Positions 42,561 through 50,006 of a stretch of DNA of 50,832 bases are shown piece after piece. The stretch spans positions 1 through 50,832 of the forward strand of contig NZ_WHOL01000052.1 of NCBI RefSeq assembly GCF_009745975.1, in the 5' to 3' direction. Below the pieces are notes generated by a model. That model saw nothing but the letters and a program-made list of their open reading frames with translations. It searched no databases and was not told the origin of the DNA. The DNA comes from Actinokineospora pegani (GTDB lineage Bacteria; Actinomycetota; Actinomycetes; Mycobacteriales; Pseudonocardiaceae). Each line of letters begins with the position of its first letter. The first letter of the stretch is position 1. The position numbers were made by a program, and so were the translations under genes.

Positions 42561-43502
42561 ATGCGGCTCATGGCCACCATCCGCGCACTCGCGCTGGTCC
42601 TCGTCTGGAGTTCCGGGTTCATCGGCGCCGAGCTCGGCGCCCGCGCCGCCCCGCCCACGACGCTGCTGGCCTGGCGTTTCCTGGTCATCGCCGTCGTCCT
42701 GCTCCCGTGGCTGCCGCGGGCGGCGGACCGGCGGGAGTGGATGCGCCAGGCGGTGCTCGCCGTGCTGTGCCAGTGCCTCTACCTGGTGGGCGTCTACTGG
42801 GCGGCGGCCGCGGGGGTCCCCGCGGGCACCTCCGCCCTCATCGCCTCCCTGCAACCGGCGCTGGTGCTCGCGGCAGCCGCGCTGCTGGGGAGCAGGCGAT
42901 TCCGGTTCGCCCACGCCTGCGGGTTGACCCTGGGGTCTGCCGGCGTCGCACTGACCGCCGCGGGGGACCTGAGCGCGGGCGTCAGCATCACGGCGCTGGT
43001 CCTGCCGCTGTTGGCGATGCTGTCCCTGGCCGCGGGCACCCTGCTCCAACAGCGGTGGACCACCACCCCGCGCACCTCGACACCGCTGATGCAGAGCCTC
43101 GCCACCCAGGCAGTCATCAGCGCGGGACTCATCACCGCGTACACCGCCGTCGTGGGCGATCTAACACCCCCGGCGACCACAGCGTTCTGGACCGCCACAG
43201 CGTGGGCAGCCCTAGCGGGCATCGGAAGCTACGGGCTCTACTACCTCGTCACCACCCGCGATGGCGCGGAACGAGCCAGCACCCTGCTCTACCTGACCCC
43301 GGCCGCCACCGCCCTGTGGGCAACGGCGATGTTCAGCGAACCCCTGCGCCGCACAGCCGTCATCGGCCTGCTCGTGAGCGCGGTCGCCGTCGCCGTCTTG
43401 AACACCGCGAGCAAAGGCCCCGTCAAGCGCCGAGGAGAGCCAGGTCCAGACCCGCTGCCTCCAGGGCGGTCCGTGGGTCCGGCAACAGCTTGCGGGCGGT
43501 GA
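42561..43502 (+). CDS. EamA/DMT-family transporter
   Basis: 313 residues from ATG 42561 (ATG 42570 is also possible). Ten hydrophobic helices form two EamA repeats; the first opens ALALVLVWSSGFIGAELGAR and contains AAAAGVPAGTSALIASLQPALV, and the second contains GIGSYGLYYLVTTRDGAERASTLLYLTPAATALWA. These carriers export metabolites, often amino acids or drugs. The substrate is unknown. It is divergent from a TetR regulator whose operator covers its promoter. The last about 26 codons, a hydrophilic Pro/Gly-rich tail, overlap the converging thioesterase gene by 80 bp. Confidence 0.9.
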   Translation: MRLMATIRALALVLVWSSGFIGAELGARAAPPTTLLAWRFLVIAVVLLPWLPRAADRREWMRQAVLAVLCQCLYLVGVYWAAAAGVPAGTSALIASLQPALVLAAAALLGSRRFRFAHACGLTLGSAGVALTAAGDLSAGVSITALVLPLLAMLSLAAGTLLQQRWTTTPRTSTPLMQSLATQAVISAGLITAYTAVVGDLTPPATTAFWTATAWAALAGIGSYGLYYLVTTRDGAERASTLLYLTPAATALWATAMFSEPLRRTAVIGLLVSAVAVAVLNTASKGPVKRRGEPGPDPLPPGRSVGPATACGR

Positions 43503-43845
43503 GGTCCATGACCCCGATGACGCACGACAGCTCGGCTGACACGGTGCCGTCCAGCTTGGTCATGACCGAGTCGCACAGGAAGGTCTTGCCGGTGCCGAAC
43601 TTCAGTTCGCAGGTGACGTCGACGGCCTCGCCCGCGCGCAGCTCGCGGCGGTAGGAGATGGTGGCGCCGAGCAGGACCGGGGAGGCGCCGCTGGCCAGCA
43701 GCTCGTCCCAGGCGCAGCCCGCTGCGGCGAAGCCCTCGACGCGGGCGATCTCGCCGTACTGGTGGTAGACCGCCTGGTTGAGGTGGCCGAGGGCGTCGAG
43801 TTCGTAGCTGCGCACCACGATGCGGGTGGACCAGGGCGTGCTCAT
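43423..43845 (-). CDS. Acyl-CoA thioesterase, 4HBT hotdog fold
   Basis: 140 residues. The 4HBT motif is YELDALGHLNQAVYHQYGEIARVEGF (about 14-39), with the catalytic Asp replaced or shifted as in many YbgC/FatA-like members. It is followed by GATISYRRELRAGEAVDVTCEL and a final beta strand. It probably hydrolyses acyl-CoA thioesters. The 3' end overlaps the EamA coding sequence on the other strand by 80 bp. Confidence 0.88.
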   Translation of the reverse strand: MSTPWSTRIVVRSYELDALGHLNQAVYHQYGEIARVEGFAAAGCAWDELLASGASPVLLGATISYRRELRAGEAVDVTCELKFGTGKTFLCDSVMTKLDGTVSAELSCVIGVMDLTARKLLPDPRTALEAAGLDLALLGA

Positions 43846-43866
43846 GGGCCGAGCCTAAGCGCGGAG

Positions 43867-43889
43867 ACCACCAGTACCCGAATGGTGGT
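43867..43889 (-). terminator. Weak hairpin downstream of the methyltransferase gene
   Basis: ACCACCA (43867-43873) pairs with TGGTGGT (43883-43889) around 9 bases, 57 bp past the stop of the minus-strand methyltransferase. No T tract. Confidence 0.35.
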
Positions 43890-43945
43890 TGCGCACGTCA
43901 CTCAGCAGTGCCGGGAGCTGCGTTCGCGACAACGGAGGCCCGCGA

Positions 43946-46132
43946 TCATTCCGGCAGGTCTGCGAGCAGGGCTGGCAGCACCAAGGCCTTCAGCTCCCCC
44001 ACGATCTCCCCCACGCGGTTGTGCGCCAGAGCAGCAGCCCGAAAAGGTGCCATGGTCTCGATGACCTCCTGCTGGACTGACAGGGTTGGAAGCCAAACCG
44101 GCAAAGCTTTGAGCGCTGAGGTCGTGATGTGGTGAATCGCGGTTCCTCTCTTCTGCGTGTCAAGCCATCGTTGGGCGTCTGGACCGGTCAGGTAGTGCAG
44201 GAGGAACGCGGGCAGCACTTTCTCTCGCGCCCGCAGGAGGATGCAGCCCGGACCAACCAGCCAGCCACGCTGCCCTTCACCCACCAGGCCGAACCGACGG
44301 TCAGACCCGACCCGCGCAGCGACGATGTCCCCCACCGAGGCCGCGAACTTGCCCATGGTCGCGGCCACGGAGGTGCTGACCGCGCCCACCTCGCCGAAGT
44401 CCACACGTTCGTTGCGAATGTTGCGGGTCAGGATCAATGGACGCCCGTCTGCGGCCCGCCCGTCCGGGGAGAGGCTTCCAGGACCCGCGACGACGCTGCA
44501 GATATCCCCCAACGAAGCGAAGGAACCGTCCTCCCGTTGTTGGCGGCCCAGACGGCTCAAGCCCTCCTCCAGGTCGGCGTCTGTGCGGCGCGCCTCCCGG
44601 AGAACACCGGCCAACTCAGCTCGTAGCGTCGCCAACGACTTCGCGAAATCCTCGGGCCCCGGTTTCGCGGACTCGATCACGGTGTAGCGCGCTGGGTGCA
44701 GAACGAAATCCTCGCGCTTCACCTCCTCAAAGGTGGCTGAGTGCGAGAACCCGGATTCTCCCTTGAACGCGGCAGCTTCCCGCCATCGCTCGTATTCGGT
44801 CGCGATCCGTGCTTGGGCCTGCGGAGCGAGGATCTGCTCGCTGTTGCTGACGCGGGTACCCAGTTGCGCCGCGTTGATCAGCAGGACGTCCGATCTGGGA
44901 ACAGCGGCCTCTCGGCTCCGCAAGATCCACAGCATCGTGGAAATTTGTGTGTGCTTGAACAGTTGCGAGGGCAGCTCGATCACCGCGTGAACGACCCCGG
45001 CTTCGACCATGGCTGCGCGGATTGACGTTTCCTTGTTTCCTCTGAACGCCGCTCCGGCTGGCATCACCACTGCGGCGGTACCCAGGGGGTTCAGCTTGAG
45101 CACTGCAAGCTGCAGCCATGCTAAGTCGGCATTCGCGGACTGACCGAAAGGCAAGTTCAAGGTTAAGTCGCTGGGCAGACGCATCGCGAACGGAGGGTTG
45201 CTGAGCACTGTGTCAAACCGGTGTTGCGCAAAACAACCTGAAGTGAGTGCGTCGCCGACTTGAATCTCCGCACTGACGCCGTGGAGAGCCGTGTTCATCG
45301 TGGCCATTTGCGCTGACCACACGTTGGCGACTTGGCCGTGCACCAATGCCTTGCCCCTGCCTGCGGCGCAGAGCAGCTCACCGCTGCCACACGACGGGTC
45401 GAGGACCGAATCGGACGTGGTCGAGGACAGGATGCGCACGAGCAGGTCAGCCACTGCGGGCGGGGTGTGATGGGCACCGCCGCGACCGACGCGGTTGTCG
45501 CCTTTGGCTAGGAAGTCGTCCGCGAGGCGCGCTGCGGTGCTCTCCGGGCCGACGCCGTCGGACATGTCGATCTCGTCGATGAATCGCAGGACATGCCGGA
45601 ACTTCTCATCGCGCACGAGTCCGAAATCTGCGCCGACCAGCGGTTCTCGACGGTGACCGGGGAGGTGGAGGTCCGCTTCGCCGATGCCGCGGCCTAAGAC
45701 CGACTGCCACTGGCTCGGATCGGTCGCCTTGAGGTAAACGAGCTTATAGAGGAGACCAAACAGGGCGGTGGGGTGCACCTCACCGCGGAGGGGCTCTGTG
45801 GCCGACCAGAGAAGTGCCATCGGATCTCGATCGGGTTGTCGAACCGCCGCAGGCGGTGCGTGCCCCTGCGCCAGGCTTCGCTGCAACCTCTGGCCGTAAG
45901 TCGCCCCTGGGGCCTCCCCCTCGCGCAGGCGGTTGCCAGGGACCTTACGTCCATCCAGCCAAGCAGAGATCGCCGAAGCCTCGAACGTCTCCTGACCACC
46001 TTCGGCGACCGCTTGCGGGAAGTCCCGATTGCGTGCCCGCCAGTTGCTGACAGCGCTCAGTCCAACCCCCGCGTGCTTGGCGACCTCAGACGCCGTCAAC
46101 CGCGTGTTCCGCCTCGACGGACCGTCTGTCAC
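43946..46132 (-). CDS. N6-adenine DNA methyltransferase with fused specificity domain
   Basis: 728 residues from GTG 46132, overlapping the Abi-like stop (GTGA). The N-terminal helix-turn-helix (about 10-65) has RLTASEVAKHAGVGLSAVSNW. The type I HsdM-like methyltransferase core (about 180-500) has GAHHTPPAVADLL, the SAM motif DPSCGSG (245-251) and catalytic NPPF (312-315). A C-terminal HsdS-like target-recognition region (about 530-725) has SFASLGDICSVV and a closing WLPTLSVQQEVIETMAPF. Methyltransferase and specificity parts fused in one chain, with no HsdR or other nuclease subunit nearby, suggest an orphan or partner-dependent modification enzyme. Expression is coupled to the HEPN/Abi gene. 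Function as anti-phage defence is inference. Confidence 0.88.
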   Translation of the reverse strand: MTDGPSRRNTRLTASEVAKHAGVGLSAVSNWRARNRDFPQAVAEGGQETFEASAISAWLDGRKVPGNRLREGEAPGATYGQRLQRSLAQGHAPPAAVRQPDRDPMALLWSATEPLRGEVHPTALFGLLYKLVYLKATDPSQWQSVLGRGIGEADLHLPGHRREPLVGADFGLVRDEKFRHVLRFIDEIDMSDGVGPESTAARLADDFLAKGDNRVGRGGAHHTPPAVADLLVRILSSTTSDSVLDPSCGSGELLCAAGRGKALVHGQVANVWSAQMATMNTALHGVSAEIQVGDALTSGCFAQHRFDTVLSNPPFAMRLPSDLTLNLPFGQSANADLAWLQLAVLKLNPLGTAAVVMPAGAAFRGNKETSIRAAMVEAGVVHAVIELPSQLFKHTQISTMLWILRSREAAVPRSDVLLINAAQLGTRVSNSEQILAPQAQARIATEYERWREAAAFKGESGFSHSATFEEVKREDFVLHPARYTVIESAKPGPEDFAKSLATLRAELAGVLREARRTDADLEEGLSRLGRQQREDGSFASLGDICSVVAGPGSLSPDGRAADGRPLILTRNIRNERVDFGEVGAVSTSVAATMGKFAASVGDIVAARVGSDRRFGLVGEGQRGWLVGPGCILLRAREKVLPAFLLHYLTGPDAQRWLDTQKRGTAIHHITTSALKALPVWLPTLSVQQEVIETMAPFRAAALAHNRVGEIVGELKALVLPALLADLPE

Positions 46133-46758
46133 CGGAACCTCGGACGGTTCGCCAAGATCGCGTCCACCGGATCAATCTCCCCCACGAGCCGGAGCACGTC
46201 CTCGGACATCCAGCCCAACAACCGGTGGATGGTCGCCAGGTCCGCCTCGAGGTGGCGGTGGTGGATCGGCTCGTAGTGCATCACCCGGTTCCGGAAGAGC
46301 AGCATGCTCCTCATGTCCTCGTGCAGGCGCTTGCGCTGCGGCCTGCCTGGGAAGGCGACGTGGAGGTGGGACCGCCAGAGGGTTCTGTCGTACCCGGAGG
46401 CCAGCAGGGACACCCAGAACCCGAAGGACAACTGGGCGACCATGTCGTCGCTGGTCGTGGAATGGTCGCGCCGCCTCAACTCTTTCTCCGCGTCGGCGAG
46501 CATGCGCAGGGCGTTGTCGTGCAACGGGGCGGCCTCCCACCAGTCCGAGCGGTCGAACGCTCTCGACAGGGTGCGATGCGCGGTGTTGCGCAACGAGACC
46601 TCGAGGTAGTGCAGCGGAGTGTGGAACGCGGATGCCACAGCAACGTTCCAGTGGTAGAGCTTGATCGCGCTCGCGATGTCGTTGCCTGCGGCTGTGCAAT
46701 AGGGTTTGAAGCGCGCGGGAGACAGCGCGTCACGAACCCACCCGGGTATGTCGGACAT
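46129..46758 (-). CDS. HEPN Abi-like (Abi_2/AbiD-F type) protein
   Basis: 209 residues from ATG 46758 (an upstream in-frame start at 46791 would lie inside the structured leader). Features of the Abi_2 group are the N-terminal RFKPYCTAAGNDIASAIKLYHWN, a first helix pair with YLEVSLRNTAHRTL (51-64), the central AQLSFGFWVSLL (108-119), and the HEPN catalytic motif RNRVMH (156-161, R-N-x3-H) within FRNRVMHYEPI. HEPN proteins with intact R-x4-H are usually RNases that block phage growth or act as toxins. It lies first in a two-gene operon with the methyltransferase, behind a 5' UTR with three stable hairpins. Confidence 0.82.
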   Translation of the reverse strand: MSDIPGWVRDALSPARFKPYCTAAGNDIASAIKLYHWNVAVASAFHTPLHYLEVSLRNTAHRTLSRAFDRSDWWEAAPLHDNALRMLADAEKELRRRDHSTTSDDMVAQLSFGFWVSLLASGYDRTLWRSHLHVAFPGRPQRKRLHEDMRSMLLFRNRVMHYEPIHHRHLEADLATIHRLLGWMSEDVLRLVGEIDPVDAILANRPRFR

Positions 46759-46897
46759 GATGGCACCGCCTCTCGGGTTTTGGGGCAGCACGAATCCGTG
46801 CTACGGTGATGGATGTAAGCCCCGGGTCGCCTCTGCTTTGCAAGCCGCCCGGGGCATCGCTTTGTCTTCATGCGGATCGCATGGATACCTGGCTCTG
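46759..46897 (-). ncRNA. Structured 5' UTR / possible abiF-like RNA
   Basis: In transcript order on the minus strand there are three stems: CATGCG with CGCATG (46883-46878 / 46874-46869, 3-base loop), GCCCCGGG with CCCGGGGC (46855-46848 / 46826-46819, 21-base internal region that could fold further), and AGCACG with CGTGCT (46802-46797 / 46792-46787, 4-base loop). They fill most of the space between the predicted transcription start and the Abi-like ATG. A conserved RNA called the abiF motif is known upstream of some abiF-type genes; whether this is a member needs a covariance search. Confidence 0.55.
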
Positions 46898-46903
46898 CGG
46901 ACA

Positions 46904-46932
46904 ACCGTAGCAGCGTTGATCATCGACGACAA
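46904..46932 (-). promoter_or_regulatory. Promoter of the Abi-methyltransferase operon
   Basis: Minus strand: -35 TTGTCG (46932-46927), a 17-base spacer, then an extended -10 TGC-TACGGT (TACGGT at 46909-46904). Transcription would start near 46897, about 139 bases before the Abi-like ATG. A perfect TTGACA at 46942-46937 has no -10 at proper spacing. Confidence 0.55.
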
Positions 46933-47015
46933 GCACTGTCAATGCTCAAATCTGTGAACATGCGGTCGTACCGTGCGCCCTATCAGATGTGAACCACTCT
47001 GAGGAGCCGGGCACG

Positions 47016-50006
47016 TCACTCGTCGTAGAAGACCCGTTCGATCACCGAGTGCGCGCGGCGGGTGGTGCGCCGGTAGTAGTCCAGGAACTCCCCCGGGTCC
47101 GCCAGGCCGCCAGGGGTGTCCGGGCCCAGTGCGCTCACCACCGCCAGCAGTTCCCGGCCCTGGGTCGGCAGTTGGTCGGTCGACTTCCCGCGGACCAGGG
47201 TGATCGCGTTGCGGACGCGGGTGGCCAGCAGCCACGACTGGGTCAGCTCCGCCGAGTCCTCCGCCGACAGCAGACCGGCGGCCACGGCGGCCGCCAGGCC
47301 CTTGATCGTCGAGGTGGTGCGCAGCGCCGGGAACTCGTGGGCGTGCCGCAGTTGCACGAGCTGCAACGTCCACTCCACGTCGGCCAGGCCGCCGCGGCCG
47401 AGCTTGGTGTGCGAGGTCGGGTCGGCGCCGCGGGGGAGGCGTTCGGTGTCGACCCTGGCCTTGATCCGCCGGATCTCGCGCACGGCGTCATCGGTCAGGC
47501 CGCCATCCGGGTACCGGATGGGGTCGATCAGCTCGACGAAGCGGGCGCCCAGCTCCTCGTCGCCCGCGATCGGGCGTGCCCGCAGCAGCGCCTGCGACTC
47601 CCAGACCTCGCTCCACTGCGCGTAGTAGGCGCGGTAGGACTCCAGGGTGCGCACGATCGGGCCCTGCCTGCCCTCCGGCCGCAGGTCGACGTCCACCTGC
47701 AACGGCGGGTCCTGCGACGGTGAGCCCAGCAGCCGCCGCACCGTCGTGGCGACCCTGGTCGCGTACTTGAGCGCGTCGGTGTCGGAGACGCCCTGCGCGG
47801 CCTCGCACACGAACATCACGTCCGCGTCCGACCCGTAGCCCAGCTCGGCCCCGCCCAGGCGCCCCATGCCGATCACCGCGATGCGCGCCAGGTTGCCCCC
47901 GGCGGCCACGGCCTCCGAGCGGTCGACGGCGTGCAGCGCGGCCTGCAGCACCGCGCCCCACACGCTCGACAGCGCCGAGCACACCGACAACACGTCCATG
48001 AACCCCAGCAGGTCCGCGCACGCCACCCTGGCCAGCTCGTGGCGGCGCAACGACCGGGCGGCCGTCACCGCGTTGCCCAGGTAGCTGTGCCGCTTCACCA
48101 CGTTGCGCAGTGACGCGGCCACCTCGGCCGGGTCGCGCAGGGTCAGGTCCTTGGGGTCGGCCAGCAGCCGCAGCACCTCGGGGGCGCGGACCACCAGGTC
48201 CGGCACCAGCCGGGAGGTGCCGAGCAGGAACGCCAGCCGCTCGGCCACCGCGCCCTCGTCGCGCAGCACCCGCAGGTACCAGGGGGTCGAGGCCAGCGCC
48301 TCGGACACCCGCCGGTAGGCCAGCAGCCCGCCGTCGGGGTCGGCGGTCTCGGCGAGCAGGTCCAGCAGCACCGGCAGCAGCGCGGTCTGGATCGCCGCCC
48401 GCCTGCTCACCCCGGAGGTGAGCGCCTCGATGTGCTTGAGCGCGCCCTGCGGGGAGGTGTAACCGAGCGCGGCGAGCCGGGCCTCGGCCTGGTCGGCGGT
48501 CAGCCGCAGGGAGCCGGTCGGCACGCGCGAGACCGCCTCGAGCAGCGGGCGGTAGAACAACTTCTCGTGCAGCCGCCGGATGCGGTTGGCGCGCCTGCGG
48601 AACTCCGCGAGCAGCACCTGCGCCTCGGACTTGCCCCGGTCCGGGCCGATGCCGGTTGCCCTGGCCAGCCAGCGCAGGTCGGCGGTGTCGTCGTCGGCGG
48701 GGAACAGGTGGGTGCGCCGGAGGCGCTGCAACTGCAGGCGGTGCTCCAGAGTGCGCAGGAACCGGTAGGACTCAGCCAGCTCCGCGCCATCCGTGCGTCC
48801 GACATAGCCCCCCGCCGCCAACGCCGCCAACGCGTCGACCGTGGAGCCGATGCGCAGCGTCTCGTCTGTGCGACCGTGCACGAGTTGCAGGAGCTGAACC
48901 GCGAACTCGATGTCCCGCAGTCCCCCGCGCCCCAGCTTCAGCTCGCGCTCGAGGAGTTCGGAGGGCACGTGGTCCTCGACGCGGCGGCGCATGGCCTGCA
49001 CGTCCACGACGAAGTTGTCCCGGTTCGCCGCGTTCCACACCAGCGGGGCGACGGCGTCGATGTAGGCGCGCCCCAGTTCGGCGTCGCCCGCGACCGGGCG
49101 GGCCTTGAGCAGCGCCTGGAACTCCCAGGTCCGCGCCCAGCGCTTGTAGTAGGCCAGGTGTCCGTCCACGGTGCGCACCAGCGCGCCGTTGCGGCCCTCG
49201 GGGCGCAGGTTCGCGTCGACCTCGAAGCAGGCCTCGTGGGCGGTGCGCATCATCGCGCTGGCGACCCGGGTGGCTAGGCTGAGGTCGTCCTCGGCGGCGA
49301 AGACCACGTCGACGTCGCTGACGTAGTTGAGCTCGTGGCCGCCGCACTTGCCCATGGCGATCACCGCGAGCCGGGTCTTGTCCTGGCTCGCGAGGCCGCC
49401 GTTCTCCGCCCACGCGACCGCCAGCGCCGCCCGCAGCGCGGCCTCGGCCAGGTCGCTGAGCCTGCTCGCCACGTCCTCGTAGGCGGGCGCCGGGAGCGCG
49501 GGCTCGACGAGGTGGCCCAGGTCGTCGGCGGCCAGCTCCAGCAGCAGGCCGCGGTAGCCGAACCGGAGCGCCTTGACCGCCTCCGTGCCGCGCTTGGTGG
49601 CGATGCCGTCCGCCGCGGCCTCGACCATGCGCAGCAGGGTCTTCGCGTAGTCGGACGCCGGGACGCCCTCGCCACTGAGCCTGCGCCACTCGCCGGGATG
49701 GGCGACGAGCAGGTCGGCCAGGGTGCTGGACCCGCCGAGGACGGAGATCATCCGCCCGCGCAACCGCCGGTTCGACACCAGAGCGGAGCGCAGCGTCGCC
49801 CACCCCGGCTCGTCGGCCTCGCGGATGCGGGCCAGACCGCGCAACGCCAGGTCGGGGTCGGGGCTGCGGGACAGGGCGGTGAGGATCAGCTCGTGCTCGA
49901 CGACCGGCCCGTGGTCGTCCCACAGCCCGGCGGCCCGCAGCTCCGCCTCGGCCCGGCTCTCGGTGAGCCCGAACCTGGCCGTCGACGACGTGACGCGGTC
50001 GGCCAT
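47016..50006 (-). CDS. glnE: Glutamine synthetase adenylyltransferase/deadenylase GlnE
   Basis: 996 residues from ATG 50006 (MADRVTSSTARFGLTESRAE); the ORF continues upstream only by overlapping the amidotransferase gene. Two nucleotidyltransferase domains are present: the N-terminal deadenylylase with GKCGGHELNYVSDVDVVF (about 219-236) and the C-terminal adenylylase with GMGRLGGAELGYGSDADVMF (about 712-731), each with the G-[GS]-x-D-x-D metal site. Each is followed by a helical GlnD-type domain with LGRGGLRDIEFAVQLLQL / LGRGGLADVEWTLQLVQL. GlnE attaches AMP to Tyr403 of GlnA or removes it, matching activity to nitrogen supply. It is co-transcribed with the gene ending 2 bases before it. In mycobacteria glnE lies directly beside glnA1; here an accessory segment separates them. 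Confidence 0.97.
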   Translation of the reverse strand: MADRVTSSTARFGLTESRAEAELRAAGLWDDHGPVVEHELILTALSRSPDPDLALRGLARIREADEPGWATLRSALVSNRRLRGRMISVLGGSSTLADLLVAHPGEWRRLSGEGVPASDYAKTLLRMVEAAADGIATKRGTEAVKALRFGYRGLLLELAADDLGHLVEPALPAPAYEDVASRLSDLAEAALRAALAVAWAENGGLASQDKTRLAVIAMGKCGGHELNYVSDVDVVFAAEDDLSLATRVASAMMRTAHEACFEVDANLRPEGRNGALVRTVDGHLAYYKRWARTWEFQALLKARPVAGDAELGRAYIDAVAPLVWNAANRDNFVVDVQAMRRRVEDHVPSELLERELKLGRGGLRDIEFAVQLLQLVHGRTDETLRIGSTVDALAALAAGGYVGRTDGAELAESYRFLRTLEHRLQLQRLRRTHLFPADDDTADLRWLARATGIGPDRGKSEAQVLLAEFRRRANRIRRLHEKLFYRPLLEAVSRVPTGSLRLTADQAEARLAALGYTSPQGALKHIEALTSGVSRRAAIQTALLPVLLDLLAETADPDGGLLAYRRVSEALASTPWYLRVLRDEGAVAERLAFLLGTSRLVPDLVVRAPEVLRLLADPKDLTLRDPAEVAASLRNVVKRHSYLGNAVTAARSLRRHELARVACADLLGFMDVLSVCSALSSVWGAVLQAALHAVDRSEAVAAGGNLARIAVIGMGRLGGAELGYGSDADVMFVCEAAQGVSDTDALKYATRVATTVRRLLGSPSQDPPLQVDVDLRPEGRQGPIVRTLESYRAYYAQWSEVWESQALLRARPIAGDEELGARFVELIDPIRYPDGGLTDDAVREIRRIKARVDTERLPRGADPTSHTKLGRGGLADVEWTLQLVQLRHAHEFPALRTTSTIKGLAAAVAAGLLSAEDSAELTQSWLLATRVRNAITLVRGKSTDQLPTQGRELLAVVSALGPDTPGGLADPGEFLDYYRRTTRRAHSVIERVFYDE

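Follow-up and report, generated by a model that had tools for sequence, protein, structure and literature searches.

Between glnA and glnE, the 50,832-nucleotide stretch of Actinokineospora pegani DNA analysed here (positions 1 to 50,832 of contig NZ_WHOL01000052.1, NCBI RefSeq assembly GCF_009745975.1; hereafter the window) contains a module of three parts: a gene for a HEPN protein predicted to be an RNase toxin, an overlapping gene for a methyltransferase-like protein, and a small structured RNA on the opposite strand. The three parts, their order and directions, the predicted promoters and the patterns of conservation and absence were computed from the sequence. We tentatively read the module as an AbiF-like toxin gated by RNA, to which a DNA-reading regulator has been added, and regard this as quite possible though short of probable. 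An earlier note on this DNA had described a 209-residue HEPN protein with the motif RNRVMH, a 728-residue N6-adenine methyltransferase and a GTGA overlap between their genes, all of which are borne out by the open reading frames (ORFs) and by Pfam (N6_Mtase, 4e-57; Methylase_S, 1e-6). It did not include the RNA, the putative operator or the helix-turn-helix (HTH) at the N-terminus of the methyltransferase, and its end point, 46940, falls inside that operator. In the list below, TRD stands for target recognition domain.

46814..46862 (+): abiF-like structured RNA, transcribed away from the HEPN gene; 69.2 bits with covariance model R1, to which the window sequence contributed
46819-46826 with 46848-46855 (+): stem of this RNA, enclosing the core GCCTCTGC at 46829-46836 and GCAAGCC at 46840-46846
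46799..46807 (+): extended -10 (TGC TACGGT) of the predicted RNA promoter
46129..46758 (-): HEPN (AbiF-fold) predicted RNase toxin, 209 aa, from an ATG at 46758 to a stop ending at 46129, on the basis of ORF and predicted fold
46276-46293 (-): codons for RNRVMH (R-x4-H), HEPN residues 156-161
43946..46132 (-): HTH, N6-adenine methyltransferase and single Methylase_S (half-HsdS, TRD) fusion, 728 aa, from Pfam and the predicted model, with the HTH at about residues 12-60, DPSCGSG at residue 245 and NPPF at 312
46129..46132 (-): GTGA, 4-nt overlap of the HEPN stop and the methyltransferase GTG start
46904..46932 (-): predicted sigma-70-type promoter of the HEPN-methyltransferase operon, -35 TTGTCG at 46927-46932 and -10 TACGGT at 46904-46909, 17-nt spacer
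46932..46958 (-): putative operator adjoining the -35, an imperfect palindrome AGCATTGACAGTGCT at 46932-46946 followed by TTCACA at 46953-46958

The same hairpin lies upstream of 22 of 23 HEPN genes that are paired with a methyltransferase and of 33 of 39 solo ones (found by an automatic picker, with locus L124 added by hand and L100 by the model), occurring both with and without the methyltransferase. Of 53 extracted sequences, 40 entered one alignment and 25 near ones, with L101, L123 and L127 left out, were used to build R1. The window RNA is the sole R1 match at E<=0.01 in its own genome, and the sequences outside the model score 76.2 (L101), 70.8 (L127) and 68.5 bits (L123); the 55 R1 matches at the loci include a few weak ones away from HEPN and one on the reverse strand of L123. 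When these 25 are aligned with MAFFT, 99.7% of cells conform to the structure and three pairs, all in the outer helix, are changed on both sides (0/500 shuffles). In a wider alignment, made by fitting 52 distinct RNAs to the model, pairing is kept in 98.3% of cells, and seven pairs (40 cells) are changed on both sides, where shuffling gives 3.7 and 7.8 (0/500).

The RNA appears to have its own promoter. Of 52 hairpins, 51 have a TANNNT box at 11 or 12 nt from the stem, and at no other offset within 30 nt, on the strand that does not encode HEPN; chance is about 0.012 per locus, some loci are near-copies and the hairpin picker slightly favoured A...TA within 40 nt. On that strand a run of T directly follows the stem in some distant solo loci (L145, L138). 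An RNA on the sense strand was considered and rejected: TA...T on the HEPN strand is found at scattered offsets (2, 11 and 15, at one or two loci each) and A...TA only at 11 and 12. The RNA and the HEPN gene lie on opposite strands, rather than in the same direction as in C. difficile. Since the RNA runs antisense to the leader predicted for the HEPN mRNA, that transcript may be a further target of it. The Rfam abiF consensus has the core GCCUCUCAACGAUGC, and this RNA reads GCCUCUGCnnnGCAUGCC in the same sense. The Rfam covariance model RF03085 gave no match in window positions 43400-47400, in the loci of five relatives or in any of 149 genomes of the phylum (a search in which no control genome matched either), and was rejected as the family of the window RNA. 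We take the RNA to be an abiF-like one that RF03085 does not detect and, by analogy, probably the antidote of the toxin; it may already be covered by the covariance models in Zilberzwige-Tal et al. 2025 (Cell).

The window HEPN protein has, as RNRVMH, the Rx4-6H motif of AbiF (AbiD/F) toxins, and its fold is AbiF-type by prediction, in agreement with the Abi-type assignment made before. R-x2-[IVL]-x-H is present in 59 of 63 HEPN rows (four are without a match), and the residue before the catalytic histidine is methionine in all 28 rows of the clade that contains the pairs and in 0 of 31 matching rows outside it. No Pfam match was obtained at 1e-3 and no ABC ATPase domain was found with Pfam; Abi_2 scores 12.7 bits against a cut-off of 25.6, which the relatives L156 and L157 exceed (28.3 and 27.9 bits). 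A PDB sequence search gave nothing below E 0.37, and the PADLOC model PD-T4-5 matches at 6e-9. We infer that the protein is a dimeric RNase, the cutting activity by analogy with work on AbiF.

The pairing of the HEPN and methyltransferase genes is not chance, and the two travel together across many actinobacteria. Scanning named GTDB contigs with the HEPN sequence gave nine relatives, each followed by a methyltransferase homologue on the same strand. In a class-wide sample of 394 genomes a HEPN match at 1e-25 was found in 38, and 12 of the 13 best matches (at least 178 bits, window included) are paired, the exception being L119 in genome G523. The coupling is thus conserved and its order strict, as had been claimed. 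Among 150 near relatives 32 genomes, including the window's own, have a HEPN match; 30 had a locus that could be inspected, at the best place and with 1.5 kb flanks, and five of these are paired (G000, G058, G132, G083 and G050). The class-wide listing comprises 45 places, of which G414, G301 and G198 (below 97 bits) were not retrieved, and all retrieved HEPN rows below 177 bits are solo save L099 and L100, both of one genus. The co-occurrence expected by the earlier note therefore holds among the closest relatives, nearly all paired, and fails for these weaker rows and for 11 distant HTH-methyltransferase loci without HEPN that are described below. Counts from one genome scan, which scored the best seven candidates per genome, are lower bounds, and profile A6, having been made from paired sequences, is biased towards these. 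L061 and L064, copies of L116 and L120, were dropped, and two copies of L106 were counted once in the upstream set of 62 regions.

In a tree of 63 HEPN rows one clade of 28 contains all 23 paired rows together with five solo ones. Intact HEPN frames occur at L119, L102-L104 and L129 without a methyltransferase homologue in the 13-14 kb retrieved; a copy elsewhere in the genome is possible. M and S are separate genes in some pairs (L118, L121, L123, L125 and L101; by Pfam for L118). In paired locus L099 (7900-8760) the promoter element leads directly into a HEPN frame that is shortened, and no RNA was detected.

Pfam and PADLOC agree that the window methyltransferase carries a type I-like M domain and one Methylase_S domain on a single chain, the N6_Mtase and Methylase_S combination of type I restriction-modification (R-M). 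Its N-terminus is modelled as an HTH, and ten residues within positions 30-62 are invariant in 13 sequences. HsdR does not accompany M and S: in a search of 18 genomes, 16 of them paired, HSDR_N (PF04313) matched in 14, never within 1 Mb of the pair on its contig, and the sole match in the window's own genome sits on another contig. The earlier observation that no nuclease is adjacent is supported as far as the restriction subunit is concerned.

Motif I, which forms the S-adenosylmethionine (SAM) loop, reads DPxCGxG in 11 of the 23 paired methyltransferases (the window's and ten others); in 12 its first glycine is replaced, by arginine in 11 and histidine in one. NPPF is intact in all 23, the window's included. 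The glycine is kept in 25 unpaired, mostly more distant, relatives and in the three best PDB relatives, and the change needs one step on the methyltransferase tree, on a branch with support of 51. M.TaqI has alanine at this position, so that loss of methylation in the altered proteins is likely rather than proven. Because the arginine recurs with the remainder of the protein intact it looks selected, not decayed. The methyltransferase may not need to methylate. Mean identity is 0.40 for the TRD (105 pairs), 0.37 for the catalytic part and 0.45 for the HTH (253 pairs each); a hypervariable TRD as a sign of restriction-type specificity was rejected, the TRD being no more variable than the other parts.

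A promoter of the pair's own, as previously suggested, stands as a prediction (-35 at 46927-46932, -10 at 46904-46909), and with it goes a conserved element. The pattern TT[AC]ACA-N18..25-TTG occurs upstream of the RNA in 18 of 22 paired loci, 0 of 18 solo loci and 6 of 4400 shuffles, and 17 of these 18 paired loci have a -10 at a distance of 17-18 nt. The loci compared were 22 of the 23 paired ones (L099 has no RNA as anchor) and 18 of 26 solo ones with an RNA match, L104, L131 and six weak ones being left out. The middle of the element is palindromic, as GCGCACTGCAGTGCGC in L127, with six or seven of seven positions matching in 10 of 18 loci compared with about 5% of shuffles. Since the palindrome goes with the methyltransferase gene, we infer that the HTH of the methyltransferase binds it as an operator. 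The solo locus L119, judged by eye, keeps a similar element and is sister to the paired L123, which suggests that it has lost its methyltransferase.

The RNA is also found apart from the toxin. The RNA pattern hit 50 IMG/VR loci, 33 of which reach 21.9 bits (E<=0.0081) with R1, and a permuted-core pattern hit 48, none reaching E 0.1. The raw count was rejected as evidence (50 against 48), and because the pattern demands part of what R1 scores, these scores favour the real pattern partly by construction. Features that the pattern does not demand give a fairer test: GYAHGY before the closing arm is seen at 30 of 50 loci (18 distinct) and 5 of 48 permuted ones (4 distinct), and a -10 at 11-12 nt at 16 of 50 and 0 of 48. 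Several contigs are near-copies, so that 18 distinct hairpins have the core on both sides, and their viral origin rests on IMG/VR. A HEPN gene occurs in the retrieved viral DNA of one locus only (L224), 32 contigs have the RNA without HEPN in the DNA retrieved, some pieces of which are short, and a search of the viral contigs for HEPN homologues confirmed none. Copies lie between terminase and portal genes (L200) and near capsid genes (L209), as judged by reading the ORFs, and in or near tRNA genes located with ARAGORN (19 at L153, one each at L189, L203 and L231). The phage RNAs would be antidotes. L153 (1-6952) is a piece of a 130-kb viral contig in which the RNA is on the same strand as all 19 surrounding tRNAs; it has no -10 box at the usual distance and is therefore probably co-transcribed with them.

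Across 296 bacterial genomes, at E<=0.01 per genome, R1 matched 27 places, spread over 24 genomes; about three of these matches may be chance. A HEPN ORF lies within 1.5 kb at 14 places, including the eight best (at least 61.9 bits), and none at 13. Among the 14 is L159 (G303:C1:3665299-3665348), where an RNA of 73.5 bits stands beside a 77-aa HEPN remnant. In another family the orphan RNA L166 (G313:C1:377813-377861; 56.8 bits) lies between glnA and an apparent reversed glnE frame, the same kind of place as the window locus, the frames being judged by reading.

HTH-M-S proteins likewise occur without HEPN. A profile search of the 394 genomes, in which the best two candidates per genome were scored and counts are thus lower bounds, gave six top full-length matches, all paired, and then at least 11 full-length or split HTH-M-S loci at which no HEPN and no RNA was found within about 1.5 kb. 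Four of the ten with larger flanks adjoin known toxin genes (HepT/MntA at L314, PIN at L315, AbiEii at L316 and DUF433 with PIN_10 at L322), which is a lead rather than a test. The motif I position of the 11 HEPN-less proteins is arginine in seven (L313, L315, L316, L317, L320, L321 and L322), valine in one and glycine in three, and NPPF is intact in all 11. Those with arginine could form a family of non-methylating methyltransferase-fold DNA readers.

In the mechanism that we tentatively propose, the small RNA made from its divergent promoter would fold into an abiF-like hairpin, bind the HEPN protein and keep it silent, as with PbAbiF/AbiFr and AbiFCd/RCd22. The HTH-M-S protein would sit on the palindrome by the -35 and repress the HEPN-methyltransferase operon, its M and TRD domains allowing it to scan DNA. 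With an intact SAM loop, as in the window, it would probably also methylate its sites; host sites would then be methylated, and host DNA would for that reason not titrate it. Many engaging sites on phage DNA, or removal of the protein by a phage, would relieve repression, HEPN would outpace its RNA cover, RNA would be cut and growth would stop. A phage with a lone copy of the RNA would bring the antidote with it.

Several results weigh against this proposal. The RNA was not found before 7 of 62 HEPN genes (paired L099; solo L111, L112, L114, L115, L146 and L148), and the five solo rows within the pair-containing clade show that a nearby methyltransferase is dispensable. The HTH_17 match of the methyltransferase reaches only E 0.05. 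The operator pattern was devised once the paired loci had been inspected; 4 of the 22 nevertheless lack it, as does L119. At the promoters of HEPN-less HTH-M-S genes perfect inverted repeats occur in 3 of 11 against 1.3 by shuffling, which is not significant; these palindromes were set aside and do not confirm the link between HTH and operator. Nor does the altered SAM loop go specifically with HEPN, since 7 of the 11 HEPN-less relatives have it too.

The earlier note had suggested that methylation marks self: HEPN would take the place of a restriction subunit and attack on unmodified DNA, with the methyltransferase as antidote. The strict order and close spacing of the pair, the retention of DPSCGSG and NPPF in the window protein and the absence of HSDR_N near the pair in the 16 paired genomes fit this idea. 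We nevertheless think it unlikely, given that the RNA precedes paired (22/23) and solo (33/39) HEPN genes, that HEPN is kept at L119, L102-L104 and L129 with no methyltransferase homologue in 13-14 kb (one elsewhere in the genome being possible), that 12 of 23 paired proteins, though not the window's, have the SAM-loop glycine changed to arginine or histidine, and that the TRD varies no more than the remaining protein. An arrangement like that of PrrC and PrrI, in which an M-S protein on DNA would hold HEPN latent by contact until freed by a phage factor and the RNA would set only the dosage, is in line with an action proposed for HEPN genes linked to R-M operons (excerpts of PMC3710099), and the GTGA overlap suggests co-translation of the two proteins. 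However, no M-S partner lies near the solo HEPN genes that have the same RNA, and the window HEPN has neither an ABC ATPase domain nor HSDR_N in its vicinity, so that we judge it improbable.

It is quite improbable, in our view, that RNA and HEPN form a selfish addiction pair stabilising a genomic segment, with the methyltransferase as a passenger with its own epigenetic role. HEPN relatives are indeed found on 522 plasmid records (E 1e-6), and RNAs lacking a HEPN gene within 1.5 kb (13 of 27 class-wide places, with about three chance matches expected) or beside a fragment only (L159) also fit this idea. The pair and its promoter element are, however, maintained across several families, and the 32 IMG/VR contigs with the RNA and no HEPN in the retrieved DNA indicate conflict with phages.

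The closest known systems are the AbiF/AbiFr type III toxin-antitoxins (PbAbiF, 8vz6; AbiFCd/RCd22 of C. difficile), which share the HEPN fold, a small hairpin RNA beside the gene and the RNA core GCCUCU...AUGC. They differ in that RF03085 has no match here and a methyltransferase is joined. RCd22 can be co-transcribed with abiF (excerpts of PMC12373285), whereas the RNA here is on the opposite strand, and RCd22 has two hairpins where one is usual here. Two R1 matches stand in tandem before one HEPN gene at L110 (6702-6753 and 6813-6864) and L151 (5843-5897 and 6048-6104). PD-T4-5, to be compared along with AbiD through the PADLOC match, is a plasmid-borne distant AbiF/D relative with Abi defence, and the excerpts of PMC9519451 mention no methyltransferase partner for it. 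PrrC with EcoprrI, like the HEPN genes in R-M operons, combines a HEPN RNase with type I-like M and S domains; the present module has an RNA alongside, no ABC ATPase domain, no HSDR_N nearby and one HTH-M-S chain with one Methylase_S domain (M and S being split in some loci). A precedent for viral copies is the lone abiF RNA in the tRNA cluster of cyanophage S-CREM1 (excerpts of PMC9964418). That region matches RF03085 at 52.2 bits and gives no match with R1. A partial literature search found no report of this trio, of a divergent actinobacterial abiF-like RNA or of a methyltransferase partner for AbiF. To that extent the pair is new, as had been supposed, but an AbiF toxin with its RNA has been described (8vz6; excerpts of PMC12373285) and the occurrence of HEPN genes within R-M operons was pointed out in 2013 (PMC3710099, in part).

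If the RNA-gated reading is true, one operon joins a HEPN toxin of the Cas13-ancestor type with a nuclease-less type I-like DNA reader, and the lone RNAs of phage contigs would be RNA-only counter-defence against AbiF-like toxins, a pattern that the S-CREM1 RNA also fits. The altered SAM loops raise the question whether a methyltransferase fold can act as a DNA sensor without methylating. A wider and more doubtful conjecture is that the HTH-(pseudo)methyltransferase-TRD family, many members of which have a conserved SAM-loop arginine, consists of DNA-reading transcription factors that arm RNase toxins. One branch would regulate a HEPN toxin gated by an abiF-like RNA, using a palindrome common to its loci, and could do without methylation or have lost it. 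Phages would respond with lone antitoxin RNAs, placed in tRNA arrays and between structural genes.

Beyond the actinobacteria, L156 (2878-2928), on the alphaproteobacterial conjugative plasmid pA of Ancylobacter, has an RNA (50.2 bits) with its HEPN gene, upstream of a large TPR and GreA/GreB-like protein.

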